DNA from: Arcanobacterium wilhelmae
Lineage (GTDB): Bacteria; Actinomycetota; Actinomycetes; Actinomycetales; Actinomycetaceae
Direction: 5' to 3'
Assembly: GCF_029632765.1 (NCBI RefSeq)
Contig: NZ_CP121247.1
Span: forward strand, 310,001-374,000
Length of the DNA: 64,000 bases
How positions within the stretch are numbered: the first letter of the stretch is position 1; every line of letters begins with the position of its first letter. A program made the translations under genes and the position numbers. This document shows positions 45,967 to 64,000 of the stretch, in pieces. Under the pieces are notes generated by a model, which saw only the letters and a program-made list of their open reading frames with translations, was not told the DNA's origin and ran no database searches.

Positions 45967-45992
45967 GGTTGGTTTACCAGGAAGGAAGAATT

Positions 45993-47039
45993 ATGAGCGA
46001 AACGGGTGCTGCCGTCGAAGTGGAGTTTGAATCGCCGAAAGAGGGGCGTAAGAAAACTCGTCGCGTGCTTGCGGTTGTGGGTGCGCTGTTTCTAGTCCTT
46101 TTCCTTGTCGCGGCTGGCGCGTTCGCATGGTTGTCGAACAAGCTTGGCGCGTTGCACACGTTGGGCAATCCGTTCGCTGATGTTTCGAATATTGAGGGTG
46201 CGAGCGAGCGCCCGCAGCATCAGGATGAGGATTCGGCGAAGCCCACCACGTTCCTTGTGCTTGGTTCGGATTCGCGTATTTCGGCTGGTGATCCGAAGGC
46301 GTGGAAGGCTGGTGCTCAGCGTACGGACGCTTTCATGATTGCCCAGATCGCCGGTGACGGGAAGTCGCTGAACATCATGTCGATCCCGCGTGATTCGTGG
46401 GTTCCGATCCCGGGTTACGATAACGCGAAGATTAATGCCGCGTTCTCGTATGGTGGCCCGGCGTTGACGATCGCCACGGTGGAGCAGCTGACGAAGATTC
46501 CGATCGATCATGTGGCGGTTGTGGATTTCACGTCGTTCTCGAAGATCACGGATGTGGTTGGCGGCGTTGAGATGACGTCGAAGGAGGGAACGAAGAAGTA
46601 CAACGGCGAGGAGGCGCTGGCGTTTGTGCGTGAGCGTAAGCATCTGCCGGGTGGCGATTTTGATCGTGTGCGCCGCCAGCAACTGTGGCTTTCTTCGGTG
46701 ATGAAGCAGACTCTGGCATCGGGCGCGTTCTCGAGCCCGTCGAAGGCGTTGGATCTGTACACGCAGATTTCGCCGTATGTAGCGATTGACGATAAGTTCG
46801 GTACCACGGACGCGGTGAGTTTTGCGCTCTCGCTTCGTGGGATGGATTCGTCGAAGATTAACTTTGTGACTGCTCCGGTGACGGGTGTTGGCCGTTCGGC
46901 GGATGGGCAGTCGATCGTGAATCTGGATAAGCCGAAGTTTGATGAGATTTCGAAGGCGTTCGCGTCGGATAAGGCAGCGGAGTATATCGAATCTCATAAA
47001 GCGGATTTGAAGACTTTGGATTCGGCGCCGGTGAACTGA
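45993..47039 (+). CDS. LytR-CpsA-Psr family cell-wall glycopolymer ligase
   Basis: A 348-residue protein with one N-terminal membrane helix (about 24-46, VLAVVGALFLVLFLVAAGAF) and an extracellular LCP domain: TTFLVLGSDSR, QRTDAFMIAQI, LNIMSIPRDSWVPIPG, KINAAFSYGG, EALAFVRERKHLPGGDFDR. The conserved Arg and Asp residues that bind the polyprenyl-pyrophosphate substrate are present. These enzymes attach teichoic-acid-like polymers to peptidoglycan. The ATG at 45993 has AAGGAAG upstream. It is convergent with the export genes. Confidence 0.92.
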   Translation: MSETGAAVEVEFESPKEGRKKTRRVLAVVGALFLVLFLVAAGAFAWLSNKLGALHTLGNPFADVSNIEGASERPQHQDEDSAKPTTFLVLGSDSRISAGDPKAWKAGAQRTDAFMIAQIAGDGKSLNIMSIPRDSWVPIPGYDNAKINAAFSYGGPALTIATVEQLTKIPIDHVAVVDFTSFSKITDVVGGVEMTSKEGTKKYNGEEALAFVRERKHLPGGDFDRVRRQQLWLSSVMKQTLASGAFSSPSKALDLYTQISPYVAIDDKFGTTDAVSFALSLRGMDSSKINFVTAPVTGVGRSADGQSIVNLDKPKFDEISKAFASDKAAEYIESHKADLKTLDSAPVN

Positions 47040-47234: not shown

Positions 47235-48212
47235 TTACTTGCCGGTGAGGTGGCGCGGCTGGTAGCCGCGTGGTGCGGCGTGAGCTGCTTGCTCGAGGGC
47301 TTTCTTTTCTTTTTTCTTCTTCTTTTTCTTCTTCTTGTCTTTGTGCGAGACCTCGAGGGGGACGAAGCCGGTTCGAGCATTGTCGAGGATCTTCTGGGCT
47401 TCCTCGGGCTTCTTATCTGCTACCGCTTTTGCCCATGCCTGATAGGCCTTGGAGACGGGGCCTGCGGGGCCGTCGGTGACGATTTGGCCTTGGTTGAGCC
47501 AGATCGCACGGTTGCACATTTTTTCGATGAGGCCGGCGGAGTGGGAGACGAGGAAGATGGTTCCGGCGTCGGAGAGCATTTCGCTCATGCGTTCTTCGGA
47601 TTTTTGCTGGAATGTGGAATCGCCTGTGGAGAGGGCTTCGTCGATGAGGAGGATCTCGGGGCGGGCTGCCGTGGAGATTGCGAAGCGTAGGCGTGCTCCC
47701 ATGCCGGATGAGTAGGTTTTCATCGGGCGGTAGATGGCGTCGCCGATTGCGCAGAAATCGAGGATTTCTGGGATTCGGGCTTCGGCCTCTTCGGGGGAAA
47801 AGCCGAGGGCGAGGAGGCCGAGTTTGGCGTTTTCGATGCCGGAGAGTTCGGGCATGAGTGCACCGTTCACGCCGAGCAACGATGGGCGTGTGGCAGTGTA
47901 GACGGCGCCTTTCGACGGCGGCTCGGAGCCGGCGAGTACGCGCAGGAGCGTGGATTTTCCGGCGCCGTTTTGGCCAAGGAGCCCGATGAAGTCGCCTTCG
48001 TAGGCGATGAATGAGACGTCTTTGACGGCCGGCACGTACATTTTGGGTGGGCGGCCGAGGAGCGCTCCGAGGATGCGTTGCATGAGCGGGGCGTTCTTTT
48101 TGTCTTCGGGTTTTGCCGACGGGGTGAGGTAGTTGACCGAGACATGCTCGATCACCATCGACGGCGTGCGCCCGGCTTCGGGGATGGAGGGGTTGTTCAT
48201 TGTTTCACTCAT
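47235..48212 (-). CDS. Polysaccharide/teichoic-acid export ATP-binding protein, Wzt/TagH type
   Basis: A 325-residue ATPase: GQNGAGKSTLLRVL (Walker A), TYSSGMGARLRFAIS (signature with the SSGM form of polymer exporters) and EILLIDEALSTGD (Walker B). The C-terminus ends in a run of about ten Lys between Asp-Lys and Glu-Lys, then a Gln/Ala/His stretch; this replaces the carbohydrate-binding domain of some Wzt proteins. It overlaps the permease gene by 4 bases. Confidence 0.9.
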   Translation of the reverse strand: MSETMNNPSIPEAGRTPSMVIEHVSVNYLTPSAKPEDKKNAPLMQRILGALLGRPPKMYVPAVKDVSFIAYEGDFIGLLGQNGAGKSTLLRVLAGSEPPSKGAVYTATRPSLLGVNGALMPELSGIENAKLGLLALGFSPEEAEARIPEILDFCAIGDAIYRPMKTYSSGMGARLRFAISTAARPEILLIDEALSTGDSTFQQKSEERMSEMLSDAGTIFLVSHSAGLIEKMCNRAIWLNQGQIVTDGPAGPVSKAYQAWAKAVADKKPEEAQKILDNARTGFVPLEVSHKDKKKKKKKKKEKKALEQAAHAAPRGYQPRHLTGK

Positions 48213-49108
48213 CGGCTCATTGCCTTACTCATCTTTTCTTCGTTGCGCCACATCACGAAGAAGCCAATTGCGAACATGCCCAGTGAGCAGATCCCGAGGT
48301 AGATGAACTGATCCAGGGCGGGGGTGTTGTTATAGACGATCACGTCGCGTAATAGGTTGAGGTACACCCAGCCAGGGTTGAGGAGCATGACGTCCTGGAG
48401 CGTGGGCTGGCCAGCGAACTGTTCGATTGTCCAAAAAATGCCAGAGGCGTAGAACCAAAAGCGTGAAATGAGACCGATAATGAAACGAATATCGGGGATA
48501 AGGGTAGTAAGAGTTGCGACGATCGAGGCCATACCCACACAGAAAGGCGCTACCAACAGGTAGATCAACGGGATGTAGAGCCAGTTCAGTGTTGGATACG
48601 AGTGGGGTGGCATCAGGATCACGAAGAAAAGCATGGCCACCAAAGTGGGGAGAAAATCGATGTAGGTGCGCAGTGTGTAGGCAGCTACGAGTGAGAATTT
48701 GGGGAAATGGAAGGTTCGGACCAGATCGCGCCCTGCGCCCATCACAGAAGCTGCTGAATCGAGGTTTTTTGAGAGCAGCGTGAACGAGATAATGCCGACG
48801 ACAAGGTAACCAACGAAGTTCGAGTGGCCTCGGGAGAAACCAAGCACGACGGCGAAGATGAAGTAGTACACCGCCGCCTGGAGGAATGGGTCCACGATGA
48901 GCCACGCCTGCCCGAGGAAGGTATCTTTAATGGTGCCGTACGCGCGAGCGTTGGATTCCATGATAATGAAATGCCTGCGTGCAAGTACTTGCTGAATATA
49001 TTCGCCGAAAGATGGGCGAATGCCAAGCTTTTGAAAGTTTTTCGCAGTCACTCGCTTTGGCTCTGAGGCTCCACTGTTCAAAGTGCCCGGGTGTTGCTCG
49101 GATTCCAT
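48209..49108 (-). CDS. Polysaccharide/teichoic-acid export permease, Wzm/TagG type
   Basis: A 299-residue ABC-2 membrane protein. NARAYGTIKDTFLGQAWLIV with the following hydrophobic segments, and FHFPKFSLVAAYTLRTYIDF, are landmarks of Wzm/TagG. About six helices are predicted. Its start at 49108 has GAAGGGAAC upstream. Together with the ATPase it flips lipid-linked polymer across the membrane. It is divergent from the SDR gene, 203 bases apart. Confidence 0.9.
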   Translation of the reverse strand: MESEQHPGTLNSGASEPKRVTAKNFQKLGIRPSFGEYIQQVLARRHFIIMESNARAYGTIKDTFLGQAWLIVDPFLQAAVYYFIFAVVLGFSRGHSNFVGYLVVGIISFTLLSKNLDSAASVMGAGRDLVRTFHFPKFSLVAAYTLRTYIDFLPTLVAMLFFVILMPPHSYPTLNWLYIPLIYLLVAPFCVGMASIVATLTTLIPDIRFIIGLISRFWFYASGIFWTIEQFAGQPTLQDVMLLNPGWVYLNLLRDVIVYNNTPALDQFIYLGICSLGMFAIGFFVMWRNEEKMSKAMSR

Positions 49109-49311: not shown

Positions 49312-50037
49312 GTGGAATACGCACTCGTCACCGGTGGGTCGAAGGGCATTGGGTACGCGGTTGCTCGCATGCTCGCGAGCCGGGGTTATTCCCTGCTTGT
49401 CACCTACGGCCATGATGTAGCCCGCGCTATGGAGAGTAAAACACTACTTGAGGAAGCGGGTTCTCCCTCGGTGGAGATGTTTGAAGTTGACCAAACCTCG
49501 CCTACGGCGGCGAACGATCTCGTAGGCCTGATCGGTGGTCGTGTCTCGGAGTTGTGTGCAGTTGTGCTCAATGCCGGTGTTACTCTGCGTGAGAATTTTG
49601 GGCAAATTGATCCGAAGCATTGGGAGGATGTTTTCGCGGCAAATATCCACTTTCCCACGTTTTTCCTCCAGGAGATCGCGCCGCAACTGCCGAAGGGTGC
49701 ATCGGTGGTCTTCACCGGTTCTCTCATGGGAGTTCACCCACACGGAACTTCTCTCGCATATGGCGTGACGAAATCCGCCACACATGCGCTTGTGAAGAAT
49801 CTCGTGAAATTCCTTTCCCCGTTTGGGGTTCGCGTGAACGGTGTTGCCCCGGGTTTTGTTGATACCGAGTGGCAGAAGGATAAGCCAGCCGAAATCCGAG
49901 CAAGTATTGAATCGAAAACGGCACTCGGGCGTTTCTGCACTCCGGAGGAAGTTGCTGGTGCCTATGCTTTCTTGCTTGAAAACCCGTACATGAACGGGGA
50001 GATACTTGTGATCGATGGCGGGTATTCTTACAAGTAG
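49312..50037 (+). CDS. Short-chain dehydrogenase/reductase
   Basis: A 241-residue classical SDR. TGGSKGIGYAVARML binds the cofactor, LNAGVTL is the structural Asn motif, catalytic Ser lies in FTGSLMG and Tyr-Lys in AYGVTKSA; the end MNGEILVIDGGY is typical. The GTG start has GAAGGG upstream. The substrate is unknown; position beside the cytidylyltransferase-oxidoreductase suggests reduction of a sugar or polyol precursor of the wall polymer. Confidence 0.85.
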   Translation: MEYALVTGGSKGIGYAVARMLASRGYSLLVTYGHDVARAMESKTLLEEAGSPSVEMFEVDQTSPTAANDLVGLIGGRVSELCAVVLNAGVTLRENFGQIDPKHWEDVFAANIHFPTFFLQEIAPQLPKGASVVFTGSLMGVHPHGTSLAYGVTKSATHALVKNLVKFLSPFGVRVNGVAPGFVDTEWQKDKPAEIRASIESKTALGRFCTPEEVAGAYAFLLENPYMNGEILVIDGGYSYK

Positions 50038-50090: not shown

Positions 50091-51425
50091 ATGACCACGG
50101 TCATCACGTACGGAACTTACGATCTGCTTCATGAGGGGCACCGTCGCCTCTTGGAGCGGGCTAAGGCGCTCGGTGACAAGTTGATCGTTGGCGTCACCTC
50201 AGATTCGTACGATCGCCAGCGTGGCAAGCTCAATGTTCACGATAAGCTTCTCCAGCGTGTGGCGAATGTGCGTGCAACCGGCCTGGCTGATGAGATCGTG
50301 GTGGAGGAATACGAGGGGCAGAAGATCCACGACATCGAGAAGTACGATGTGGATATTTTTGCCATCGGCTCAGATTGGCGTGGAAAGTTCGATTACTTGG
50401 GTGACTACTGCGAGGTGGTCTATCTTGAGCGCACGAAGGGCATTTCTTCCACTCAGCTTCGTAGCGTGGAAGATGGAATGCTTGCGCTCGGCATTATCGG
50501 TGCTGGGCGTAGCGCACGTCGTATGGTGAAAGAATCGTGGCGAGTTTCGGGCGTGCAGATCCTCGGCTTGTATTCTCGCGATATTGAGCAAGCGCTCGAG
50601 CTTTCTCAGGAGATGGAGCTCGCGCAGCCCGCGTCGAGTGCGCAACAGATCATCGAAGAATCTGATGCGGTCTACATCGCCTCGCCCCACGGCACTCATT
50701 ACGAGTATGCCAAAGAAGCTATCGAAGCAGGTAAGGATGTGCTGGTGGAGAATCCGATCACGCTCCACGGTGACGAAGCAGTAGAGCTTTACAATTTGGC
50801 GAAAGATCGTGGAGTCGTACTTCTTGAGGCTGCAAAAACTGCCTATTTCACTGGCTTCCGTCGCATGGTGGAGATGGCCCGCAGTGGTGGCATTGGAAAA
50901 ATCAAAGCCGTTGACGCCACGTTTACGAAACTCATTCATGATGGCCGTGAGGTTGAGGCACCCGACGGCGGGGCCCTTTCTGAGATGGGCACCTATCCGT
51001 TGATGGCAATCTTCAAGTTGCTAGGTCTTGAATACGAATCAGCGAGCTGGGATGTGTTCCGGGAGAGCGAATCGGGTGTTGATACGTTCGCGCGCATCTC
51101 ACTGAAGTATCCACACGCTATCGCGACGGCGACTGTCGGAATTGGCGTGAAATCGGAAGGTGATCTGGTGGTCTCTGGAACACAGGGCTATCTGTATATG
51201 CCAGCACCATGGTGGCTCACGGATAACTTTGAACTTCGGTATGAGGATACGCGGCGTAATCGCCACTTCTTCTATCCATTCGAAGATTCCGGGTACCGGT
51301 ACGAATTGGCGGAGTTTGTGAAGGCGATCCGTGCTGGCAAACTAACGTCGTTCAAATGGAAGCCGGAGGAGTCGATTGCCACAGTGAAGTTATTAGAGCA
51401 GGCGCGAAAATCCGATTTGTTGTGA
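50091..51425 (+). CDS. Cytidylyltransferase fused to Gfo/Idh/MocA oxidoreductase
   Basis: A 444-residue fusion. Residues 1-130 are a TagD/GCT-type nucleotidyltransferase (ITYGTYDLLHEGHRRLLERA with HxGH, GSDWRGKFDYL, TKGISSTQLRS) that activates a polyol phosphate as CDP derivative. Residues 133-444 are an NAD(P)-dependent sugar oxidoreductase (LGIIGAGRSARRMVKESW, VLVENPITLHGDEAV with the EKP-like motif changed to ENP). CDP-ribitol synthesis uses separate cytidylyltransferase and reductase; a single chain carrying both activities would make a CDP-polyol directly. The product is inferred. The gene starts 53 bases after the SDR, and the next gene follows within 50 bases. Confidence 0.85.
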   Translation: MTTVITYGTYDLLHEGHRRLLERAKALGDKLIVGVTSDSYDRQRGKLNVHDKLLQRVANVRATGLADEIVVEEYEGQKIHDIEKYDVDIFAIGSDWRGKFDYLGDYCEVVYLERTKGISSTQLRSVEDGMLALGIIGAGRSARRMVKESWRVSGVQILGLYSRDIEQALELSQEMELAQPASSAQQIIEESDAVYIASPHGTHYEYAKEAIEAGKDVLVENPITLHGDEAVELYNLAKDRGVVLLEAAKTAYFTGFRRMVEMARSGGIGKIKAVDATFTKLIHDGREVEAPDGGALSEMGTYPLMAIFKLLGLEYESASWDVFRESESGVDTFARISLKYPHAIATATVGIGVKSEGDLVVSGTQGYLYMPAPWWLTDNFELRYEDTRRNRHFFYPFEDSGYRYELAEFVKAIRAGKLTSFKWKPEESIATVKLLEQARKSDLL

Positions 51426-51474: not shown

Positions 51475-54400
51475 GTGATGAGTACGAAGCGATTGCTTGG
51501 TGGTTTGGCACGCGCCATTGGCGCTAGCGGTGGTGATGCTGCCCTGATCCGAGAAGCGAATATCAAGTTTGACGCCCGTGCATATGAGGATGCGGCGCAG
51601 GCGCTCGAGTCGATCGTTCCTTCGAGGCGTACCGTACCTGTCAATTTGAAACTCGCTGAGTCCTACGCTTCTGCAGAAAATTATGAACGCGCATATGAGG
51701 TTTTGTCGACGATCGAAGATGTCGATTCTTTGGGTGCAAATCGGGAATGGTATGAGTATCTGAATAAGATGATTTGCCGTCGTATCGACGAAGCTACCAA
51801 GTTGAAGGAAAGAGCCCATCCAGTTCCATCAATGAGCCTAGAACAGTTAAAGTTGGCTACCGGGGCTGGCTATTTTTCGATAATTCTCCGTAATTCTTTC
51901 GTCGAAACTGCGGAAGTTACTGATGAGGCTATTCTTTTCAAGGAGATTGTCGATAATTTGAAGCTCGATGACGAGCTACTTGGAGATTACATTGAACGTT
52001 GGAACAAGCATGACGCCCGCCTGATCGCAAATTCTGCGCTGAAGCTTGTTGGCTCTCTTGATGCGCCGCTGACACATTATGAACTTGCGGTAGCGAATTT
52101 CAATAATGGGCACCCGATTGCGGCTTTGAAAGAGCTACACTCGCTCGCGAGCACGAAAATCTCTAAGCTGGCGGTATATTCTGATTTTAAGACAGAGGTG
52201 CTAGAAGAGCTTGTTCGGCTCGATATCGATGCTGCGGAAATGCTTGCTCCGCACTTACTCGAAATCAGTGAAATTCGCTCCGAAAGAACTGCAGGGTTGA
52301 ACCCGGTCAGTTTGTTGACCAAAGCTGATCTCGTAACTGAAATGAAGCAGCTATCCTTGCTTTCCAATTCAAACCTTGCTCAGCTGATTCAGCTTGCAGC
52401 CGATGCTCGAGATTTTCGCCTGATCCTTGATCTGGCAGACGACCCCAATGTGTTTGATCGCCTCAACGAAACAAGTCTAAAAGATCTAGCTCGCGCAGAA
52501 ATTGAATTGCTTGGTGGCGTCCGAGAACAGACATTCGAATCCATCAACTTGAAGTTGGATGCGCGTAAAGCGAAAACATTGTCTTTGCGTGACCTTCTCA
52601 ACGATTTGGGATACTCCCAGCTCGCTTTTGAGCAATCGATGAAGGATATGAGTAGTGGGAATTCAGACTGGAAATGGTGGGACCGGACGGAACGCGTTGC
52701 TGTCACTCAGGGAGTTCCTGACGTTGCCATGGAAACTGCGGTCGTTGCTGCCGCACTCGCTGATCAGACGCACCCCCACTTCCGTGCTGGAATTGTGGCT
52801 GAACAGATGGGCAACCCAAAGTTAGCGCTCTATGAGTACATCGAATCTGGAGCGTTGGATGGTGGACAGACGATCGCGAGATTGCGTACGGGGCTTCTTC
52901 AATGGAAGGTTTTCCAAGATCGTCAAGAATGCCTTAGAACACTCGCTCCGTTTTGGGAAAAATTTGACTACGACAATTTTCTCGCCCGAGAGCTTGGCTT
53001 GACTGGTAGGGATAATGAAGACGGCATCGGGGACGAGCCCTCCGAAAAGTCGGCGCTCCGGACGACGGTCGATTCAGAGGGGCTAAGTTTTCTTTCGAAA
53101 GCTAGGAAGAGGATCATGCATACTTCTGACCCCGTCAAATCCGAAGCTCAAGAAGTGAAAGTTTCTTTCCGTGAGCTCCGAATAGCTATCGAAAGTCAGG
53201 ATTGGGATCAATCACTCAGGATTCTCTGGTCGATGGCACTTTCGATGGTGGAGTTTCGCGCTGATGTTTTCCATGGGTTGGGTTACGTATATGCGGCAAA
53301 AGGCGATGACAATCTTGCCTTTGAGTGTTTTAATGCATCTCAACAGATTCCTTCGCAATTTTTGTATGAGACTGCCAAAGCTGGTAAGCGCCAGCTGAAG
53401 GTGTTCCGTTATCTTGAGTTGTTCGAGCGGCTCCCTATCCTTAAGAATGTCTGGCTTTGGGAATCGCATTTTGGAAAGAAACTCGACGGCAATCCGCTCG
53501 CCATGTTCTCGGAAGCTATTTCGCGTCCTGAATGTGAGGAAGCGATCCATGTTTGGGTTGCGAACCAAGGCGCGGAAATCCCTTTGGTTGTTCGCCAGGA
53601 TCCGAATACAGTTGTCACTCCTCGCGAATCGTTCGGCTACTGGCTTGCTCTCGCGTGTGCTGAGTATTTGACGAACAATGCATCATTCTCGTTTGAGTAC
53701 ATGCACCGCGAAGGACAGGTGTCAGTGAACACATGGCATGGTACTCCGCTAAAAGCTCTCGGCAAGGATGATAAAGATTCGCCGTACGATTACGGAAACG
53801 TGGCCCGTAACTTTATTCATTCGACTCACCTGTTTATGCCGAATGATTTCACAAGTGAAATTATGACTAAGCGCTATCAGGTATCGAATCTTATTGGGTT
53901 GGGTGTAGCGGAAACGGTCGGGTACCCTCGAAACGATATGCTTTCGCCGACGCCAGAAAATACTCAAAACCGGGTTGTGCTCCGTACGCGGCTTGGCATT
54001 CCGGATGATGGTAAGCCTGTTGTGCTTTACGCTCCAACATGGCGCGGTAGTTCGAAGTCAAAGAAATTTGACGGAGCAAAACTGGTGTCTGATCTTGATC
54101 GGCTACAAGCTTCTAGTAGTTGGCATTTAATTTTCCGTGGGCATCCCTTGACACAGGAAATCCTTTCTGATTCGATTCTCGACGTTCACGCGCCGTCTTC
54201 AGACATTTCAACATACGAGTTGATGAACATGGCCGATGTCGTCATCACTGATTACTCAAGTCTCGGCGTGGATTTCTTAGCTACTGGACGTCCGGTTATT
54301 TACTACACCTATGATGCTGAGGAATATGCTGAAGAGCGTGGCCTCAATATGAAGGTTGAGGAATTCCCCGGGCTAGTGGTCTATTCGATCACCGACCTGC

Positions 54401-55644
54401 TCAATACTCTTGAGCAGTATGTAGATGGTGAGTTGTTCAAGCAACCAGATTGGGATGAACTGCAGCGCCGGTATGTGCCACAAGATGACGGCAACGTGTC
54501 AGAACGTCTGATTTCGAAAATGCTTGAAAGTCAGGGGGTGAATACAGCGCCAAGTGTGGGGAAGAAGAAGGTATTGATCCATTCCACATTCTCAAAGATC
54601 GACGAATCCGAAAATCTGAAGCGGCTTCTGGAAGATCTTGATTATTCAAAGCTTGATGTAACGCTTGTTTTCGACCACTTTGAAGTGGGGCTTGATAAAA
54701 CTCTCGCGTCTGTGATTGATTCTCTTCCGCAAGAGGTTTCCGTGTATCCACGAAAGGGCGCCTTGGTTGCCAAACCGGAAGAGCAGCTCGTCGTCAAGCG
54801 GCTGTATTCTGCGGGGGATCAAATTCTGAATGATTTCCAGCGTTCTCGATACTCAAATGCTCTTTTGCGTGAAAAGAGGCGCCTGTTTGCCGATAATGAT
54901 TTTGACATCGTTATTGAGTGGCAGCCGGAGTCAATATTCTGGACTGCATTCATGGCTCTCGGATTCCGAAATTCCCGCAGGGTTCTGGTCCTGAATCGAG
55001 ATGTGAACCCTAAATGGGCGCAACAACAATGTAATCTCCTGACGTCAGCGCAGTTCTGGAGTGAATATGATGTAATCGTCACGCCATCTCCAGCGGGGAT
55101 AGACGAAGCAGTTACTGAAATCCATTCTGCAATGCTCCTCACTGGGGACAGTCCGTTACCGGTCGAGCGTAAGAACGGCTCTGATGGGCACCTTGATTTT
55201 TATGCCTTCGGCGGGGTTCGCGATAGTATTGATTTGGCCAAAGTCGATCAAGCTTTGTCGATACTCAATTCCGATCATGATCGTCAGATTCGGCTTACAG
55301 TGGTAGGCGCTGGGGCCGCCATGCAGCGGTTGCGGCGATACCCACAGCCTGATCTTCAGTATTTGACGATCGAAGAGACGAATATGCCTTTTACTCATGA
55401 AATAGTGCATGCTGATGCAATCGTGAACCTGAGCGATGGAAATTCCCATACAGTTGCTTCGTATTGGGCGGGATTACAGGGATTGCCAGTTGTGGATTTA
55501 TCGATGCTCAGTTCTGACGATCCTGAAATAATCGCTCAGGCTTTGAAAGCTGCTATGAGTGATGCTCATGCATCGACACCGGAGTTTACAGAGACAAGCA
55601 CGCTGTCCGATTTGATTCAGTATGTGACAGGAGTGGAGAAATGA
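51475..55644 (+). CDS. Giant TagF-like protein: helical N-terminus, CDP-glycerol glycerophosphotransferase domain, GT-like C-terminus
   Basis: A 1389-residue protein. Residues about 1-690 are helical and repeat-like with no assigned family. Residues about 700-1040 are a CDP-glycerol/ribitol glycerophosphotransferase domain: TWHGTPLKALG near 752, FIHSTHLFMPNDFTS, VLYAPTWRGS, FRGHPL and MNMADVVITDYSSLGVDFLA, the active-site and substrate motifs of TagB/TagF. Residues about 1060-1389 resemble a GT4 fold with an EETNMPFTHEIVHADAIVNL-like end. A GTG at 51475 is followed by ATG at 51478; AGAAAGAG precedes. It probably polymerises or primes a polyol-phosphate chain. GC is lower than the core. Confidence 0.82.
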   Translation: MMSTKRLLGGLARAIGASGGDAALIREANIKFDARAYEDAAQALESIVPSRRTVPVNLKLAESYASAENYERAYEVLSTIEDVDSLGANREWYEYLNKMICRRIDEATKLKERAHPVPSMSLEQLKLATGAGYFSIILRNSFVETAEVTDEAILFKEIVDNLKLDDELLGDYIERWNKHDARLIANSALKLVGSLDAPLTHYELAVANFNNGHPIAALKELHSLASTKISKLAVYSDFKTEVLEELVRLDIDAAEMLAPHLLEISEIRSERTAGLNPVSLLTKADLVTEMKQLSLLSNSNLAQLIQLAADARDFRLILDLADDPNVFDRLNETSLKDLARAEIELLGGVREQTFESINLKLDARKAKTLSLRDLLNDLGYSQLAFEQSMKDMSSGNSDWKWWDRTERVAVTQGVPDVAMETAVVAAALADQTHPHFRAGIVAEQMGNPKLALYEYIESGALDGGQTIARLRTGLLQWKVFQDRQECLRTLAPFWEKFDYDNFLARELGLTGRDNEDGIGDEPSEKSALRTTVDSEGLSFLSKARKRIMHTSDPVKSEAQEVKVSFRELRIAIESQDWDQSLRILWSMALSMVEFRADVFHGLGYVYAAKGDDNLAFECFNASQQIPSQFLYETAKAGKRQLKVFRYLELFERLPILKNVWLWESHFGKKLDGNPLAMFSEAISRPECEEAIHVWVANQGAEIPLVVRQDPNTVVTPRESFGYWLALACAEYLTNNASFSFEYMHREGQVSVNTWHGTPLKALGKDDKDSPYDYGNVARNFIHSTHLFMPNDFTSEIMTKRYQVSNLIGLGVAETVGYPRNDMLSPTPENTQNRVVLRTRLGIPDDGKPVVLYAPTWRGSSKSKKFDGAKLVSDLDRLQASSSWHLIFRGHPLTQEILSDSILDVHAPSSDISTYELMNMADVVITDYSSLGVDFLATGRPVIYYTYDAEEYAEERGLNMKVEEFPGLVVYSITDLLNTLEQYVDGELFKQPDWDELQRRYVPQDDGNVSERLISKMLESQGVNTAPSVGKKKVLIHSTFSKIDESENLKRLLEDLDYSKLDVTLVFDHFEVGLDKTLASVIDSLPQEVSVYPRKGALVAKPEEQLVVKRLYSAGDQILNDFQRSRYSNALLREKRRLFADNDFDIVIEWQPESIFWTAFMALGFRNSRRVLVLNRDVNPKWAQQQCNLLTSAQFWSEYDVIVTPSPAGIDEAVTEIHSAMLLTGDSPLPVERKNGSDGHLDFYAFGGVRDSIDLAKVDQALSILNSDHDRQIRLTVVGAGAAMQRLRRYPQPDLQYLTIEETNMPFTHEIVHADAIVNLSDGNSHTVASYWAGLQGLPVVDLSMLSSDDPEIIAQALKAAMSDAHASTPEFTETSTLSDLIQYVTGVEK

Positions 55645-56621
55645 CTGAATTTCCTAGCCTTGCTGTAATTGTTCCTGCATACAAGGTTGAAGCATATCTT
55701 CGCGATTGTGTGGAGTCCTTACTCACATCTGACTACCCAAATTTCGAAGTTGTCATTGTCGATGATGGCTCACCGGATGACACTGGCATGATCGCAGATC
55801 AACTTGCAACTGAAGACCCTCGAGTCCGAGTCATCCATAAGGAAAATGGTGGCCTTGGTGCGGCTCGTAATACGGGTGTCGAACAGACTGACTCTGATTT
55901 GATCGCTTTCGTCGATTCGGATGATCAAGTTCCGTCGCATGCGTATTCGCGAATGTACGAAGCCATGCAAAAGTCTGGTTCGGGCATGGTTGTTGGCGGT
56001 GTTGAACGCTTCAACTCAACGCGTCGGTGGGCCCCGTGGTTCGTTGAGGAAGCGCATTCTGTTGAGCGCCTCGGTATTACGGGGCAGCAGTTCCCGTCGA
56101 TTCTCTGGAATGTTTTCGCATGGAGCAAGCTGTTTACTCGTGATTACTTCAAGCGTGTGGTTGGAGAGTTTCCAGTCGGCGTTTTGTACGAAGATCAAGA
56201 AGTTTCCGCCAAGATGTACCTCGGTGGGGAACCGTTTGACGTGATCCCAGATATTATTTATCGCTGGCGCGAGCGCGATGACGCTAGCTCGATTACTCAA
56301 AATAAGACGAGCCTGGATGATCTGGGGCAACGGCTCCACGTGATGAAAGAAACCGAAAAAGTTATTCAAGCGTCTGGCGACGAAGCAACCAAAGAATATT
56401 GGTACCGCAAGGCGCTCAACGAAGATCTATGGTGGTACTATCGGGTTGTCCCGCAAGCGTCATGGGCGTTTTGGCTAATTCTCTGTGAAGGCGTCCGCGA
56501 TATTGCCGCAAATGCGCCGAGCTCATCGATCGCTGGTGGGCCAGCGAAGCGGCACGACTTAATTAGACTCGCGATTCGTGGCGATCGGCAAAAATTTAAC
56601 ATGCGGTTGAGGAAGGCGTAG
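55641..56621 (+). CDS. Family 2 glycosyltransferase
   Basis: A 326-residue GT-A enzyme: VIVPAYKVEAYLRDCVESLL at the start, IVDDGSPDDTG, GGLGAARNTGVEQ and the catalytic/metal Asp motif FVDSDDQVPS, then YEDQEV. The C-terminal third is helical. It overlaps the giant gene by 4 bases (ATGA), so they are translated together. It likely adds a sugar to the polymer or its linkage unit. Confidence 0.9.
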   Translation: MTEFPSLAVIVPAYKVEAYLRDCVESLLTSDYPNFEVVIVDDGSPDDTGMIADQLATEDPRVRVIHKENGGLGAARNTGVEQTDSDLIAFVDSDDQVPSHAYSRMYEAMQKSGSGMVVGGVERFNSTRRWAPWFVEEAHSVERLGITGQQFPSILWNVFAWSKLFTRDYFKRVVGEFPVGVLYEDQEVSAKMYLGGEPFDVIPDIIYRWRERDDASSITQNKTSLDDLGQRLHVMKETEKVIQASGDEATKEYWYRKALNEDLWWYYRVVPQASWAFWLILCEGVRDIAANAPSSSIAGGPAKRHDLIRLAIRGDRQKFNMRLRKA

Positions 56622-56624
56622 CTC

Positions 56625-58169
56625 GTGGCAATTGTTCAATTGATGGATTCGGTCGGGTATGGTCGTGGCGGTCTAACTCGGGTTATGTATCAGCGGCTTG
56701 AAGTTTTGAAAGAATACACCGATGAAGAGATTTGGGTAGTTATTACTGGATTGCAGTTTGATGCCTGTTCGGTGTTTTCAAGCTTGCAACGGGATGGGTT
56801 TATTCCTGAGGGGGTGAAGGTTCATGCGCTTTTTGATGATGATTATGTTGGGTACTCAATACGCGGGCGAGATCCCGAGTTCTCCTTTGATCCAGGTGAC
56901 GGCGCATTAGTTGCAGAGGAAAAGGAAGGTCTCGTTCGTCGTTACTACGACATCTCCGGAAAATTCCTGGGGCTGACAAAATACCGGAAGAACGGAACGA
57001 GGATTTCGTCGGATATTCATTCGCATGAATCGCCTCAACTATGTTTGAAGACGGTTGAGTACGATGCTCTTTCTCGGCCACGACGAGCTGTTTATCGTGA
57101 CAGTGAGTGGAACGAGAAGTTCGAGACTGTGCTGACAACACGCGGCGAACTCTTGTATAGTGCGTGGAAGACAGTGTCGAATTATTCATATCGATGCACC
57201 TTGTTTAATAATGATACAGGAAAAGCTCAACTGTTTTCGGGATTTCATGAGATGCGTGCCTGGATGTTGCGCGAGTTTTTGCGGGGACTCCCCGGAGAAG
57301 TAACAGTGATTTCTGATGAACCCGCAACGGTTCCAATGATCACATTGATGCCCGATTCCAATGGTATAAACGGTATTGGGATGATACATAACACTCACTT
57401 TGTCGGAGATGGTTCTGGGGATTCCAAGAACCAACTTCGGGGATGGGCTAAATATTATTCAGAGCCTCGAGGCGCACTACAGAAGATTGCGTGTCTAACT
57501 AATGCCCAATTGGGTGATCTCAGGAGCTTGTATCCTGCATGGACTGACAGAAACTCTAGGGCGATCACGAATATGGTGGATATTCGTGATGTAAAAGCTC
57601 GGCATGATTTTTTCTACGAAGTGTTATTCGTGGGGAGACTGGCCCCTGTGAAAGGTGTGGGGACGTTAATTCTGGGTGTAGAAAAGGCGCTTGAAACTCT
57701 GCCGAACCTAAAGTTCAACATTGTTGGCGGTGGACCGGAAGACTCCAGTTTGCGGGCAATGGTCGAACAGCGGGGGCTCGGCGACTCGGTCATTTTCCGT
57801 GGTTGGGACGAAGACGTGTATTCATGGTATGACAGATCTGATTGCTTACTGGCGAATTCAGAATTCGAGGGGGTTCCTCTGACGATGTTGGAGTCATTCT
57901 CTTCAGGAATTCCGATTATTACGCGTCCCACACTCTATGGTCCTGTCGAGATAGTTGATGATGGAGTGAATGGATTTATCACCGACGGTACGCCGGAGGG
58001 GATCGCGGATAAAATTTGCTCCCTTTATTCGGACGTTAGTGAATTTAGTCGACTCTCACAGGCGGCGATTGACGCTTCGCATCGATTTTCACCCAAAGTG
58101 TGGAGAAATAAGTGGCTATCTTTGATTGCTTTGGATATTACTGATGATAATGAAGCGAGTGCACAATGA
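56625..58169 (+). CDS. Family 4 glycosyltransferase, TagE/GtfA-like
   Basis: A 514-residue GT-B enzyme. The N-terminus (MDSVGYGRGGLTRVMYQRLE) and the C-terminal domain (EVLFVGRLAPVKGVGTLILG, FRGWDEDVYSWYDRSDCLLA, NSEFEGVPLTMLESFSSGIP) fit TagE-type enzymes, which put glucose on polyglycerol phosphate. The middle contains beta-rich sequence (about 110-200) typical of this group. The GTG start at 56625 follows the previous stop by 3 bases. Confidence 0.88.
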   Translation: MAIVQLMDSVGYGRGGLTRVMYQRLEVLKEYTDEEIWVVITGLQFDACSVFSSLQRDGFIPEGVKVHALFDDDYVGYSIRGRDPEFSFDPGDGALVAEEKEGLVRRYYDISGKFLGLTKYRKNGTRISSDIHSHESPQLCLKTVEYDALSRPRRAVYRDSEWNEKFETVLTTRGELLYSAWKTVSNYSYRCTLFNNDTGKAQLFSGFHEMRAWMLREFLRGLPGEVTVISDEPATVPMITLMPDSNGINGIGMIHNTHFVGDGSGDSKNQLRGWAKYYSEPRGALQKIACLTNAQLGDLRSLYPAWTDRNSRAITNMVDIRDVKARHDFFYEVLFVGRLAPVKGVGTLILGVEKALETLPNLKFNIVGGGPEDSSLRAMVEQRGLGDSVIFRGWDEDVYSWYDRSDCLLANSEFEGVPLTMLESFSSGIPIITRPTLYGPVEIVDDGVNGFITDGTPEGIADKICSLYSDVSEFSRLSQAAIDASHRFSPKVWRNKWLSLIALDITDDNEASAQ

Positions 58170-58368
58170 GCTGCGGTATCGACTGATTTTTGTGGTAGTT
58201 TAAGTGATCTTGAAGGTTTGCAGTGGGAATCTGTCATTCTTTCAAGGAATTTTGGGGACATTGCATTGTGTATGTCAATCTTAGAGTTTGTGAAGTTTTG
58301 AGTGGTAGACTCCGAGTTTTTACATTCCTAATTTCAGTGGCCGACACTGGCATCTTGAGGAGACCTGA

Positions 58369-60285
58369 ATGACGAGCGCGCAAGAAGTGATAGCGTTTGC
58401 GCGGAAAGCTGCGTGGCATTTCCGCCGATACGGCATGGCTGGTGCGCGGCGTTATCTGAAGGGGCGAGGCATTAATATTCCGAGCTTCGAGCAACTCGGT
58501 TGGAACGTTAAGCCCAATCCGGTCAAGCTGAATGAATGGGCGGTGCCTCCCGTAGATCAGCCCACTCACAAGATCACCGTTGGAGTAATCGCCGACGAAT
58601 TCTTCCGTTTTGCCTTCGCTTACGAGTGGGATGCCCTCTATCTCGATTCTTCCTCCTGGCTTGCCCAACTTGAAGAAACGACAATCGATTTCTTGTTCGT
58701 GGATTCCGCCTGGCAGATGGAACGCGGTGAAACCTGGAAATACCAGATCCTCGGGGAAAGTGCGCCACGCGCCGAACTGCGTGAGCTCGTTGCCTACTGT
58801 AAAGAGCGCGGCATTCCGACCGTGTTCTGGAACCGTGAAGATCCGCCGCATTACGGCGACGCTATCGAAACGGCGAAACTCTTCGACTACGTCTACACCA
58901 CCGATTCCACGCGCGTACCTTTCTACAAGAACGATCTCGGGCACGATCGAGTAGCGGCATTGCCGTTTGCGGCGCAGGTCGCCATTCACAACCCGATGGC
59001 AGTGATGGACGGATACGAGGTTGCGAAGAAGCGTGACGTCGCATTCGCTGGCGCGTATTACGGAATGAAGTATCCAGAGCGCAAAGAACAGATGGATCTC
59101 CTACTTGGCGCGGCCTTGGATCCGGAAAAGAAAATGGCCACAGGGCTTGATATTTTCGCGCGTGATATGGGCGGCGGTAAAGACTACCGTTTCCCGCGCA
59201 AATTCCGTGCGAAAATCCGTGGCTCGCTCACATACCGTCAAACACTTTCGGCGTACCGCCATTACAAGGCGTTCATCAATGTGAACTCGGTGGTGACCAG
59301 CCCAACGATGGCGTCAATGCGGCTTTTTGAGGTGCCAGCGTGTGGCACGCCGATCGTCTCCACACCCACACCTGCAACCGCCAACTTCTTTTCCCCGCAG
59401 ATGGTGGCGATGGTAGAAACACCGGAGCAAGCGCAATTCCAGATCGAGGCTCTCACACGGAATAAGAACTATTCTGATCGGATGGCGTACCTTGCACAGG
59501 GGGAGATTTGGAAGAAGCACACATACACCCACCGTGTGGATCAGATCCTGCGTGATCTGGGGCTAGAGTCCAAGCTCTACACCCCACCTACTGTTGCGCC
59601 AATGATTTCAACAGTTCGCCCTGCACAGCTTGAACACGTGCTCGAAACACTTGCTGCACAACGTGACGTGCAGATGCAGCCGATTGTCGGTACCCACGGC
59701 TTCGCTGCATCCGATGAGATACAGGCGAAGGCTCGGGAACTCGGGCTTGACGTGATGTGGATTGAAAACAGCCGAGAGCTTTCGCTCGGTGATGTCTATA
59801 ACCGGCTGATCGAACGAGTAGACGCTGACTACATCGCCAAGATGGACGACGACGATTTCTATGGAGCCGACTATCTCTTTGATTCACTCCTCGCGGCTCG
59901 CTACTCGCGTGCTGAGCTCGTCGGCAAGCAGGCGCACTTTATGTATCTTGAGGACGAAGACGTGACTGTTCTGCGATTCCCCACGTGGGAAAACCGTTAC
60001 ACGTCCTGGATCTCCGGCCCGACGATGGTGGCGCGTGCCGACGTCATGAAAGAACTTGGCTTTGCTTCAATGACGCTTGGAGAGGACTCTGACTTCCTCC
60101 AGCGCGTCATCAAATCAGGTGGAAAGGTCTACTCGGCCCAGCGCTTCGGGTTTGCCCAAATGCGTAAAGCGCGTGCCAACCATACGTGGGAGATCTCAAG
60201 CGCAGAAGTGATCTCCACCGGAAAGATCTCCCACTGGGGTCGCCCGAACGAAACGGAGATGCCGAGCCGCGAACCGTGGGAATAG
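58369..60285 (+). CDS. CgeB-like glycosyltransferase with second GT2-type domain
   Basis: A 638-residue protein. Residues about 60-400 fit the CgeB/glycosyltransferase-1 group (GVIADEFFRFAFAYEWDALY, FWNREDPPHYGDAIE, VFAGAYY-type middle, FINVNSVVTSPTMASMRLFE and VPACGTPIVSTPTP). Residues about 430-600 are a GT2-like catalytic domain (ADYIAKMDDDDFYGADYLFD). GC is back near the core level. It has its own 199-base upstream gap. Confidence 0.8.
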   Translation: MTSAQEVIAFARKAAWHFRRYGMAGARRYLKGRGINIPSFEQLGWNVKPNPVKLNEWAVPPVDQPTHKITVGVIADEFFRFAFAYEWDALYLDSSSWLAQLEETTIDFLFVDSAWQMERGETWKYQILGESAPRAELRELVAYCKERGIPTVFWNREDPPHYGDAIETAKLFDYVYTTDSTRVPFYKNDLGHDRVAALPFAAQVAIHNPMAVMDGYEVAKKRDVAFAGAYYGMKYPERKEQMDLLLGAALDPEKKMATGLDIFARDMGGGKDYRFPRKFRAKIRGSLTYRQTLSAYRHYKAFINVNSVVTSPTMASMRLFEVPACGTPIVSTPTPATANFFSPQMVAMVETPEQAQFQIEALTRNKNYSDRMAYLAQGEIWKKHTYTHRVDQILRDLGLESKLYTPPTVAPMISTVRPAQLEHVLETLAAQRDVQMQPIVGTHGFAASDEIQAKARELGLDVMWIENSRELSLGDVYNRLIERVDADYIAKMDDDDFYGADYLFDSLLAARYSRAELVGKQAHFMYLEDEDVTVLRFPTWENRYTSWISGPTMVARADVMKELGFASMTLGEDSDFLQRVIKSGGKVYSAQRFGFAQMRKARANHTWEISSAEVISTGKISHWGRPNETEMPSREPWE

Positions 60286-60379
60286 TCGCCGGGCGACTCT
60301 CCGGTAACTATGCGATGAATACGTGACGCTGATTCACGCAACTGAATCCCACACCACCCGAGAAACAAAAGGAGAGAGC

Positions 60380-63300
60380 ATGGGACCACTCTTGCAACTA
60401 GTGATCGTGAACGACATGCCGGAATATTTCCGGGCCAGCTTTAACTCTCTCCAAAAAGCTGTGCTCCGTGCCCCCATGGTGGTTGATACGCAGGTGTGCG
60501 AACTCGCCGACGTCTCGTCGGTGATTGAACGTTCCGACGCCGACTGGTTCGTCTTTGCGAAAGGGCGCGACGAAGTCGATCCGGACTTCTTCGAGAAGCT
60601 CGAGCCTTTCCTCGATCAGCCGCGTGTGATCGCCACGCAGGTACTTCGCAAGCGTGCAGACAACGGTACGGTCTGGGACAACGCGCCGTTCCGCGAGCGG
60701 TTTCCCACGCTTCGTCGGGAGGTGGATCTCAACGAGAACCCGTGGGATATGTGGGATTCGTGGTGGGGCGTATGCGTACACCGTTCGCTCATCGACGGTG
60801 TGGGCGAACTCGGAGCCGAAGGTGAAGGCCTCCTCGTACACGCGCTGGCGAAAACCGGCGGCCATGCAACGTTCACTGCGGAAGCGAAATACTTAAAGCG
60901 CTACTACTTTGAAACACCCACCGAGCCCTTCGAAGACTACACGCCACGCCTGGCCGCCATGGAACACTGGCTTTCCCAGCCCGACGTGCCCACATGGGTC
61001 TGGCAACTTGTGATCTGCGAGCTTCAGACCATGATGGAGCGCGATCGCCAGCTCTTCTTCCGCTCACGCTACCTTGAGCCCGAGCAACGCGCCGAGATTG
61101 GGCAGCGGCTCCTTTCGATCGCGGCGCAAATCCCGGATGAGCAGATCGAGCAATACGCACTCACACCACTTTCGCTCCATGTCTCTAAAGCGCTCCAAGC
61201 CGCTGGAGAAAGCGGGATCGTCTCCGACTACATCGTGCGAGCGAACCCGCGCGAATACCTGCCAGGTTACCGGGTGAGCTACTTCTACTACGGGGAAGTC
61301 CCCGAGGAAGAATTTTTCTCAGGCAGTGAGCGAATCGAACCGCTCCAAACCAAGATTATCGACCACTCCTACTACGAGCTCCCATTTGTCTGCGAGCGGG
61401 TACTCTGGCTCCCCAAGCGGCCGCGGCTCTCAGCGAAGCTGAACGGGAAGAAGCTCGAGGTTAAATCTTTCACTGGCTACCATCCTCGGCCGAGTTCGGC
61501 GCCGATTTCATGGAAGGGTGCGCTCAAGCGCGATCTCACAAACGCAATGAAATCAGCGGTAAAGACTGCAAAGTCACTTGTCCCCGAGCAAGCGCTTGAC
61601 CGTGTGCGAAATGCCCGTGCGGAAGGTGCGGGAACGGGCGAGATGCTCGCCGCTGCTCTCGGGAAAAATCCGAAACCGGCGTCGGGGGAGAGACACTGGC
61701 TTTACCTTGACCGTGAAATGTCCGTGGGCGACGGCGCGATCCAGCTCTACCGATACGCGGCCCCTCGCGTTCCCGGCACCCACTCGTTCGCGCTCTCACT
61801 CGATTCCCCACAGTGGGCCGAGCTCGAAGCCGAGGGCGTGAACCTCGTGGCCACGGGCACCCGCGATTTTGACGAAGCGGTACTTTCTGCCGACACGCTC
61901 CTGATCGCGGATATCGGCGATTATGCACTGACCGACGTGTGGAGCAAAATCAAGGACCGCAACATTCGCACGGTCTTTCTCCAACACGGAATCACGCTTC
62001 GGCAGATGTGGCGCTGGATGAACCGCACCGATTTCACCTATCTTGTCACGTCGCTCGAGGAAGAATACGAGGAGATCGCGCGCGATCACTCGAGCTATTG
62101 GCTCATGCCTGGTCAGCTCCTTCACGCCCAGATGCCGCGCTTCGACGACCTCGCCGGGCTGCTCGGGAGAGAATCGCGCTACGTTCTCCTCGCGCCCACC
62201 TGGCAAATCGAGGTGCAAAAGCGCCTCCGAGCTGGCGAGGATGTTCACCCGGAAGATACGCACCTGGGCCAGTGGCTCGATCTCGCGCTCAACGCCGACT
62301 GGGGCGATCTGCAGCCCGTGATGTTCGTTCACCCGGTGTACGCACGCTGGATGAACCGCGATTACTTCCCACTTCCCACTGTCACAGGTACAGAGGTGCC
62401 TGAGGTGCTGGCGCAGTCTGCAGCGGTGCTTTCCGACAAGTCCTCGTTGATCGACGACGGTCACATGATGGGGATCCCTGGAATCATCTGGAATCCCGAT
62501 AACCTTCCCGATTTCGATCGTTATCGTGATATGCACGTTAAAGCCGGCGCCCACATCGCCACCTCGCGCGAAGAAGCCCTTGCGCTCGCGGACAAGGTTC
62601 GCACAGGAGAGATTTCCCGTGAAAAGCCGATCGTGGATGGGCGCGCGCGAGAACGGCTTGTGAATATGCTGCTTGGGAGCGAATACTGGCGTCCTGCGGA
62701 ACCCGTTGCGTTGCTTGAGCCGACGTCGCAGGAGTTACCGACGTCGGCGAACGAACCGGCGCAACTCCCTGTTCCTCCGAACCAACTGAGCATCACTGCG
62801 TCGGCCGAGCTACCGACGCCGATCCGCGCCTCACTTATTTCGCCCGTATACGGGGTGGGCGAGTTCCTTCCGGAGTTCTTCGATTCCCTCGACGCGCAGA
62901 CGCTTCCGCACGACCAATTCGAGGTGATTCTCGTATGCGATGGCCGGGTGGATTCCTCGCCTGAGCAGTGCCACGAATGGGCTGCGAAGACGGATATCCC
63001 AGTTCGCGTGATCGAGATCGAGAACTCTGGCCAGGGCGCCGCCAGGAACGTTGGGCTCACTGAGGCTCGCGGTGAATGGGTCGGGTTCCCGGACCCTGAT
63101 GACGTGCTTTCCGCGAACTACCTCGCGGAGCTGCTCGGCGCCGCCGATCGATATGCCGCCTACGAGCCGTCCACAGTGACGGCACACATCACGCTCTTCG
63201 GCATGAAGAAACCGCGTCGCCACGCGCTCGAGTTCCGCTTTGCGCGCGGGGAGCGGGTGGTCGATCCGCGCGAAGAACCAGCAGCAGTGCAGCTTTCGGC

Positions 63301-64000
63301 GTCGGATTCGCTGTTTAAGCGTTCCGTGGTCGACGCCGGCAATGCAAAGTTTGCTGAAGATCGCGAGGCCGCAACATTCGAAGATGCCATGTTTGTTGGT
63401 GACGTTCGAGAGGTGAATCCGGTCAGCGTTCTCGTGCCTGGCGCGAACTATTTCTACCGCCAGCGAGAAACGTCCACTGTCGGAAGTTCCTGGGCGAACC
63501 CCAAGCGGTTCACGCCGCAAATGCTTCGCCGCTACTTGCCGTATTTGAAAGCCCACCCGCATCCGTGGGCGGTTCAGGCGGTTCTCTACGACGTCGCGTG
63601 GTATTTCGTGGCTGCTTCCGAGGGTAGTATTCCGAGGAACCTCACTGACAAAAAGTTTATGAGTGCTTTCCGCCAGGTGCTCCGCCAGATGAGCACGGAC
63701 GATATCGTCGCGTGTCCGTGGGCTCACTTCCGCGGCGGACATCGTGCGGTCGCTTTGATGATGATGGACGTGCGAAAGATCGAAGTGGTTCGTGGAGGGA
63801 CACTAGTTCGCGACGACGCCGGTGTCCGGCTTATCGGTGGGCGAGCAACTCACCGCAGAGCGTCGCGTAAAGGTCCGAAGTGGATGAAGGTCACACCTGC
63901 ACGCTTTAACGGACAGTTTGTTAGCTGGAATGTCGTGCGTGGCGGGAAGCTGTGGAAACGGTCGGAGGTTGTTCGTGTTCCCATCAATGTTCCCCAACCT
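60380..64000 (+). CDS. Giant TagF-like and GT2 fusion protein, cut by the window end
   Basis: The frame from ATG 60380 (GGAGAGAG upstream) stays open to the last base: 1207 residues and more. Residues about 1-410 are of unknown type (FVFAKGRDEVDPDFFEKLEP). Residues about 440-780 are TagF-like: LLIADIGDYALTDVW, RTVFLQHGITLRQMWRWMN, YVLLAPTWQIEVQ, VMFVHPVYARW and LSDKSSLIDDGHMMGIPGII; His of the QHGI motif is kept, but the usual TDYSS reads SDKSS. Residues about 815-1010 are a GT2 domain (ASLISPVYGVGEFLPEFFDS, VCDGRVDSS, SGQGAARNVGLTEARGEWVG, FPDPDDVLS). It may polymerise and glycosylate the wall polymer. The rest lies outside the window. Confidence 0.85.
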   Translation, partial: MGPLLQLVIVNDMPEYFRASFNSLQKAVLRAPMVVDTQVCELADVSSVIERSDADWFVFAKGRDEVDPDFFEKLEPFLDQPRVIATQVLRKRADNGTVWDNAPFRERFPTLRREVDLNENPWDMWDSWWGVCVHRSLIDGVGELGAEGEGLLVHALAKTGGHATFTAEAKYLKRYYFETPTEPFEDYTPRLAAMEHWLSQPDVPTWVWQLVICELQTMMERDRQLFFRSRYLEPEQRAEIGQRLLSIAAQIPDEQIEQYALTPLSLHVSKALQAAGESGIVSDYIVRANPREYLPGYRVSYFYYGEVPEEEFFSGSERIEPLQTKIIDHSYYELPFVCERVLWLPKRPRLSAKLNGKKLEVKSFTGYHPRPSSAPISWKGALKRDLTNAMKSAVKTAKSLVPEQALDRVRNARAEGAGTGEMLAAALGKNPKPASGERHWLYLDREMSVGDGAIQLYRYAAPRVPGTHSFALSLDSPQWAELEAEGVNLVATGTRDFDEAVLSADTLLIADIGDYALTDVWSKIKDRNIRTVFLQHGITLRQMWRWMNRTDFTYLVTSLEEEYEEIARDHSSYWLMPGQLLHAQMPRFDDLAGLLGRESRYVLLAPTWQIEVQKRLRAGEDVHPEDTHLGQWLDLALNADWGDLQPVMFVHPVYARWMNRDYFPLPTVTGTEVPEVLAQSAAVLSDKSSLIDDGHMMGIPGIIWNPDNLPDFDRYRDMHVKAGAHIATSREEALALADKVRTGEISREKPIVDGRARERLVNMLLGSEYWRPAEPVALLEPTSQELPTSANEPAQLPVPPNQLSITASAELPTPIRASLISPVYGVGEFLPEFFDSLDAQTLPHDQFEVILVCDGRVDSSPEQCHEWAAKTDIPVRVIEIENSGQGAARNVGLTEARGEWVGFPDPDDVLSANYLAELLGAADRYAAYEPSTVTAHITLFGMKKPRRHALEFRFARGERVVDPREEPAAVQLSASDSLFKRSVVDAGNAKFAEDREAATFEDAMFVGDVREVNPVSVLVPGANYFYRQRETSTVGSSWANPKRFTPQMLRRYLPYLKAHPHPWAVQAVLYDVAWYFVAASEGSIPRNLTDKKFMSAFRQVLRQMSTDDIVACPWAHFRGGHRAVALMMMDVRKIEVVRGGTLVRDDAGVRLIGGRATHRRASRKGPKWMKVTPARFNGQFVSWNVVRGGKLWKRSEVVRVPINVPQP

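Follow-up and report, generated by a model that had tools for sequence, protein, structure and literature searches.

The locus described here raises the question of whether two giant proteins, each encoded in a single frame and acting as one chain, produce an alternating glycosyl-polyol-phosphate polymer in one pass, as the original prediction had proposed. The window, that is, the whole stretch of 64,000 nucleotides that was analysed, corresponds to positions 310001-374000 of contig C1 of a 2.0 Mb genome assembled as a single contig. The domain anatomy of both giants agreed with the proposal that they join TagF-like and glycosyltransferase-like domains, and when the sequence was extended past the window, as had been suggested, the frame of the second giant ended 15 bases beyond it. 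An artificial joining of separate genes in the window was ruled out by the one-contig genome and by the similar fusion in protein P0002. The idea that such a system would be undescribed did not stand, because a 2018 paper (PMC5974469) had already described single-chain TagF/glycosyltransferase polymerases that produce poly(glycosylpolyol phosphate).

The window encodes an LCP family glycopolymer transferase (45969..47039, plus strand), an ABC transporter ATPase (47235..48212, minus strand, PF00005) and an ABC-2 type membrane protein (48209..49108, minus strand, PF01061), the last two being called TagH-like and TagG-like by eye. Homologues of this pair also adjoin related loci. On the plus strand follow an SDR family oxidoreductase (49312..50037), a TagD-like cytidylyltransferase fused to a Gfo/Idh/MocA part (50091..51425), which may supply CDP-glycerol, giant 1 (51475..55644, 1389 aa, with its ATG at 51478), a stand-alone GT2 of 326 aa (55641..56621), a GT4-type glycosyltransferase of 514 aa (56625..58169), a two-part glycosyltransferase of 638 aa with Glyco_trans_1_2 (58369..60285), which is conserved in the locus of relatives, and giant 2 (60380..64000, running on to 64015), whose length is 1211 aa from the ATG at 60380 or 1230 aa from a GTG at 60323. 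Giant 2 is followed, just beyond the window, by a third TagF protein of 937 aa and then by an LRR surface-type protein. With its ABC pair, LCP protein and TagD-type domain, this is a TagF/glycosyltransferase wall- or capsule-polymer locus, so the wall-polymer cluster first predicted was retained in this wider form. The whole genome contains two PF00953 proteins and three LCP proteins, and no TagA/WecG family protein (PF03808) was found in it (0/1; the control was positive in 7/14).

The GC content of the giant 1, GT2 and GT4 genes was 47-51%, compared with 54-60% in the flanking genes for the SDR, TagD, the 638-aa enzyme and giant 2 and 52% in the TagG-like gene, as if the three had arrived together. 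Of eight further genomes from the genus to which the window belongs, none contained giant 1. The third TagF protein, the 638-aa enzyme, the N-terminal part of giant 2, its GT2, TagD and giant 1 co-occurred in 9/20 loci, all nine belonging to one other genus. The TagD/Gfo fusion is common, since at least 8000 scored candidates matched it; relatives were 56-64% identical (119 among the matches listed), and in genome G085 the match covered the TagD part alone, not Gfo/Idh/MocA. No stated role was found for the Gfo/Idh/MocA part of the fusion at 50091-51425.

Several other features were observed around the locus. The LRR protein (L005:16001-18097), whose gene comes directly behind that of the third TagF protein, may serve as an acceptor of the polymer, because in Actinomyces oris a surface protein is glycosylated by an LCP enzyme, according to the part available of that report. 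After the LRR gene there is a 918-aa protein (L005:18193 to L006:949), whose two pieces, scanned apart, gave no Pfam match, and further downstream a transposase-like gene with HTH_38 and an rve integrase core, IS30-type by eye (L006:13600-14796). A second envelope-polymer locus at 902-923 kb of C1 (L007, L008) encodes another TagGH-like pair, a GT2-type protein of 726 aa, a TagF protein of 601 aa and a GT2/TagF protein some 946 aa long. The C-terminal part of the 918-aa protein was 42% identical to a 624-aa protein of this second locus (GASKG motif, hydrolase-like by eye), and its N-terminal part matched the spacer region of the GT2/TagF protein there at 26% identity.

Giant 1 consists of a helical, TPR-like N-terminal region (51475..53390, plus strand), a TagF domain (53392..54534, plus strand) and, C-terminal to it, a GT-B fold (54547..55641, plus strand). 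The tentative TPR assignment comes from one sub-threshold TPR_2 match and from the TPR families in the precomputed lists of several relatives. In the TagF domain, the two catalytic histidines and the motifs WHGTP, APTWR, RGH and TDYSS of its active site are intact. The GT-B domain lacks both the catalytic R/K (GRxSPEK) and the EX7E of retaining GT-B enzymes, so giant 1 was not classed as a bifunctional polymerase. The same motif loss was seen in 9/9 members of the giant 1 clade, compared with 0/6 comparators, and a filter that dropped proteins covering less than 85% of the model left 86 TagF/GT-B proteins, of which only giant 1 and the G085 relative showed it. The mean pairwise identity of the donor half was 19.0% in the nine dead proteins versus 41.2% in the six live ones, that of the GT-B N half was 35.3% versus 35.7%, and that of TagF was 53.1% versus 42.5%; the decay of the dead GT-B falls on its donor half. 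Loss of these motifs predicts an inactive domain and does not prove one.

In the tree, from which 9/67 TagF rows left uncut by the cutting model had been dropped and 7 further cut rows omitted, ten dead-GT-B proteins formed one clade (SH-aLRT 100) nested in the live group (93). The dead-GT-B giant is known in its genomic context from two genomes, the other eight clade members being database proteins. No relative emerged from the contig search made with giant 1 only. A second contig scan yielded 79 loci, in which all the coverage-passing proteins (74/74) kept both GT-B motifs. At the order level, 14/396 genomes matched at E 1e-90 and, the window genome apart, the eight full proteins with a GT-B region were all intact, the other matches being without that region. 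Giant-1-like frames of 1200 aa or less at the related loci, including two broken L133 pieces, were dropped from the counts. In PLSDB the best place reached just 27% over 53%.

Giant 1 resembles Cps3D and Cps7D (PMC5974469 and PMC11666461, in the sections available; structure 8qoy) in the order of TagF and then GT-B, with a putative TPR-like region before them, in both catalytic histidines and TDYSS, and in sequence (E 9.7e-87). Unlike them, giant 1 has a GT-B devoid of both the R/K site and EX7E, is adjoined by a separately encoded GT2, and lies in a Gram-positive-type locus with an LCP protein. It also has the TagF fold and motifs in common with TagF/TarL of type I wall teichoic acid (3l7i, E 1.6e-24), but differs from those systems in its fused domains and in a genome without a TagA/WecG family protein.

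Which enzyme could then add the sugar? Homologues of the 326-aa GT2 were present in 8/213 family genomes at E 1e-45. In two of the eight (the window genome and G085) the GT2 was free-standing, each time directly after the dead-GT-B giant 1, and in the other six it formed the N-terminal part of a protein of 1223-1381 aa with a TagF domain. These TagF domains carried WHG (6/6) and TDYSS (6/6), and PTW was missing in four, whose TagF domains are near-identical (G074, G101, G065 and G011). In the tree, the six fusions fell next to the third TagF protein and apart from giant 1. No homologue of the 326-aa GT2 occurred in any of ten genomes in which the giant-1 GT-B is intact (Fisher p 0.015, with related rows). 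A 1452-aa triple fusion of GT2, TagF and Glyco_trans_1_2 was observed in another genus of the family (L117:8227-12582, G032).

Judging from the sequences, the stand-alone GT2 and giant 1 may form a split backbone polymerase, of which the GT2 would be the sugar-adding half. In the parts available of the papers concerned, trans-complementation works between single-domain mutants of Cps1B and Cps7D (PMC5974469), the separated parts of Bcs3 work in trans, and CroT of E. coli K18 is a separate frame (both PMC10299916), which makes a split polymerase workable. Hib Bcs3 and the split K18 system share with the window locus a TagF-like phosphotransferase that acts together with further domains, either fused to it or supplied in trans, but there the partners, as far as the same source describes them, are a phosphatase and a ribose-transferring domain. 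Both single-chain TagF/glycosyltransferase polymerases and working in trans are already known (PMC5974469, PMC11666461, PMC10299916, in the sections available). The product of the 326-aa GT2 could instead be a linker or a branch; the role of backbone transferase could instead fall to the GT4 or the 638-aa enzyme. Giant 1 might even make plain poly(glycerol phosphate), as in type I wall teichoic acid, with the GT2, GT4 and 638-aa enzymes making the linker or side chains or serving giant 2. The fully intact TagF domain of giant 1 and the several separate glycosyltransferases within the locus would suit this reading, as would the poly(Gro3P) made by CpsA/C in a related capsule system, reported in the part of the source available; nevertheless we consider it rather unlikely, because the fusion of the GT2 to a WHG TagF in six other family genomes points to direct cooperation of GT2 and TagF, and because the genome is without the TagA/WecG family protein.

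Giant 2 has a different anatomy. Its N-terminus (60380..61342, plus strand), thought at first to be of an unassigned kind, aligned with 34 live GT-A regions at 97.6%, and at 99.3% when two relatives were added, versus 0.1% for a shuffled control. The AlphaFold model also had a GT-A fold; the AlphaFold models were built from alignments that include live relatives, which biases them toward the folds of those relatives. Absence of a known fold was ruled out by the GT-A match. The motifs DDG, NAGQGAARN, DPDD and ED are absent from this region, which is a decayed GT-A. The N-terminal part of P0002 alone reached just 55.4% against the live GT-A profile, and the N-terminus of the third TagF protein gave 0.2% with hhalign alone and 12.6-15.2% with relatives, values that yielded no assignment.

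The TagF-like domain of giant 2 (61640..62692, plus strand) keeps H555, H670 and the serine pair, with QHG, HP and SDKSS present and APTWQ in place of APTWR. It was unlisted for PF04464 (Glyphos_transf) at E 0.01, below the curated cut-off; the G085 counterpart scored 22.0 versus the cut-off of 22.1, and P0002 has PF04464 in its precomputed list. The replacement of the usual TDYSS by SDKSS (62432..62446, plus strand) was seen correctly at the outset, but it is no oddity: [ST]D[RK]SS occurred in 21/21 rows covering the site and is, as judged from these sequences, a conserved clade signature and not a defect. Its conservation across the clade ruled out damage. The proposed transfer of polyol phosphate by giant 2 was not upheld, since QHG together with [KR]SS suggests that the donor is probably hexose-phosphate. 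In the parts available of a 2024 structural paper (PMC11666461), WHG marks glycerol-phosphate polymerases and QHG variants are hexose-phosphate transferases; by analogy, the QHG of giant 2 points to hexose-phosphate transfer under a rule that rests on few characterised enzymes. QHG was common to 34 GT2/TagF relatives.

The C-terminal GT2 of giant 2 (62807..64000, plus strand) is an intact GT-A domain with DPDD and FED, predicted to be active. In relatives it is a separate neighbouring gene, so that the giant 2 gene is a fusion: the GT2 partner of the N-terminal part was a separate adjacent frame in 14/20 related loci, and in the other six (L134, L138, L143, L145, L146 and L151) no GT2 partner was found beside it within the fetched stretch. 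P0002 is a similar fusion (35% identity over 87%) and, like L150, keeps PTWR. In the class sample, the N-terminal part matched 12/394 genomes at E 1e-40, including that of the window, and the others reached only 1.5e-51. Some individual relatives diverged further. The one at L146:8518-10959 (G098) has FLQNG for FLQHG, an asparagine thus replacing the catalytic histidine; a distant row at L151:10720-13320 (G126) has TDRSS and an apparently intact DADD in its GT-A and is a possible intermediate; and at L150 (G183) a long match to the giant 2 model crosses several stops, with an N-terminal part and a short GT2 frame adjoining, so this region is probably in decay. Cps1B, CslB and Ccs2, as described in the sections available of PMC5974469, also have a GT-A region before a TagF-like domain; unlike them, giant 2 has a decayed N-terminal GT-A, an intact GT2 fused at the C-terminus and [KR] within the DYSS motif.

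Both giants could still be ordinary bifunctional TagF-like polymerases, each a single chain that makes a polymer of alternating glycosyl and polyol-phosphate units, given that the architecture fits the known TPR/TagF/GT-B kind and that giant 2 retains its GT2, both histidines and the serines. We hold this to be improbable, because the GT-B of giant 1 has neither donor motif and an eroded donor half, which also speaks against synthesis in one pass, and because giant 2 has QHG, no PTWR and a decayed GT-A of its own. More improbable still is a reading of the giants as relics or as regulatory pseudoenzymes, with the real work left to the second locus; the motif losses in both giants and the existence of a second locus with a GT2/TagF protein would agree with it, but the open frames are intact in a complete genome, the TagF motifs are conserved and the gene set is conserved in another genus.

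The explanation that we favour, with moderate confidence, is a split polymerase with dead domains, two phosphotransferase units, TagGH-type export and LCP attachment. What is observed is the domain anatomy, the loss of motifs, the structure of the clades, the order of the genes, and the fusion and the split; the activities, donors, linkages, export, attachment and order of steps are what we infer from them. The locus would be a cell-envelope phosphate-glycopolymer locus, in which the ancestor of giant 1 would be a Cps3D-type bifunctional polymerase (TPR/TagF/GT-B), of which giant 1 would have kept the TagF activity alone, transferring glycerol phosphate from CDP-glycerol supplied by the TagD domain. 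Its GT-B may persist as an acceptor-side or structural remnant, and the alternating sugar would be added in trans by the GT2 directly downstream. As an inverting GT2 would replace a retaining GT-B, a beta linkage is predicted in place of an alpha one, in line with the association of GT-B domains with alpha linkages and GT-A domains with beta in the available part of the 2018 work (PMC5974469). Giant 2 would form the second unit. This phosphotransferase, TagF-like and belonging to the clade with QHG and [ST]D[RK]SS, would probably use hexose-phosphate or another non-polyol donor; its own GT-A has decayed, and it carries by fusion the GT2 that is a neighbouring gene in relatives. The polymer would be exported by the TagGH-type transporter and then attached by the LCP protein. 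In the open-access literature, subscription papers being outside the scope of the search, we found no description of dead glycosyltransferase halves with replacement in trans or of the [ST]D[RK]SS clade.

A more general rule is offered tentatively, as one that may well fail: the glycosyltransferase half of a single-chain polymerase would die yet stay as a scaffold for a partner or the acceptor, its role passing in trans to an inverting enzyme encoded alongside. It would apply to both giants (GT-B in one, GT-A in the other), the replacement in giant 2 having later been re-fused at the other end, and the phosphotransferases of the [ST]D[RK]SS clade would use an as yet undescribed donor. The label "CDP-glycerol glycerophosphotransferase family protein", carried by several relatives, can hide a dead glycosyltransferase half as well as a donor that is probably other than CDP-glycerol. 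The locus provides a small, defined set of proteins for study in a Gram-positive. A dead domain in cis with a live enzyme in trans is a suggested route by which such polymers diversify and, if the rule is true, the polymer linkage, and with it the serotype, would switch while the phosphotransferase stays unchanged.
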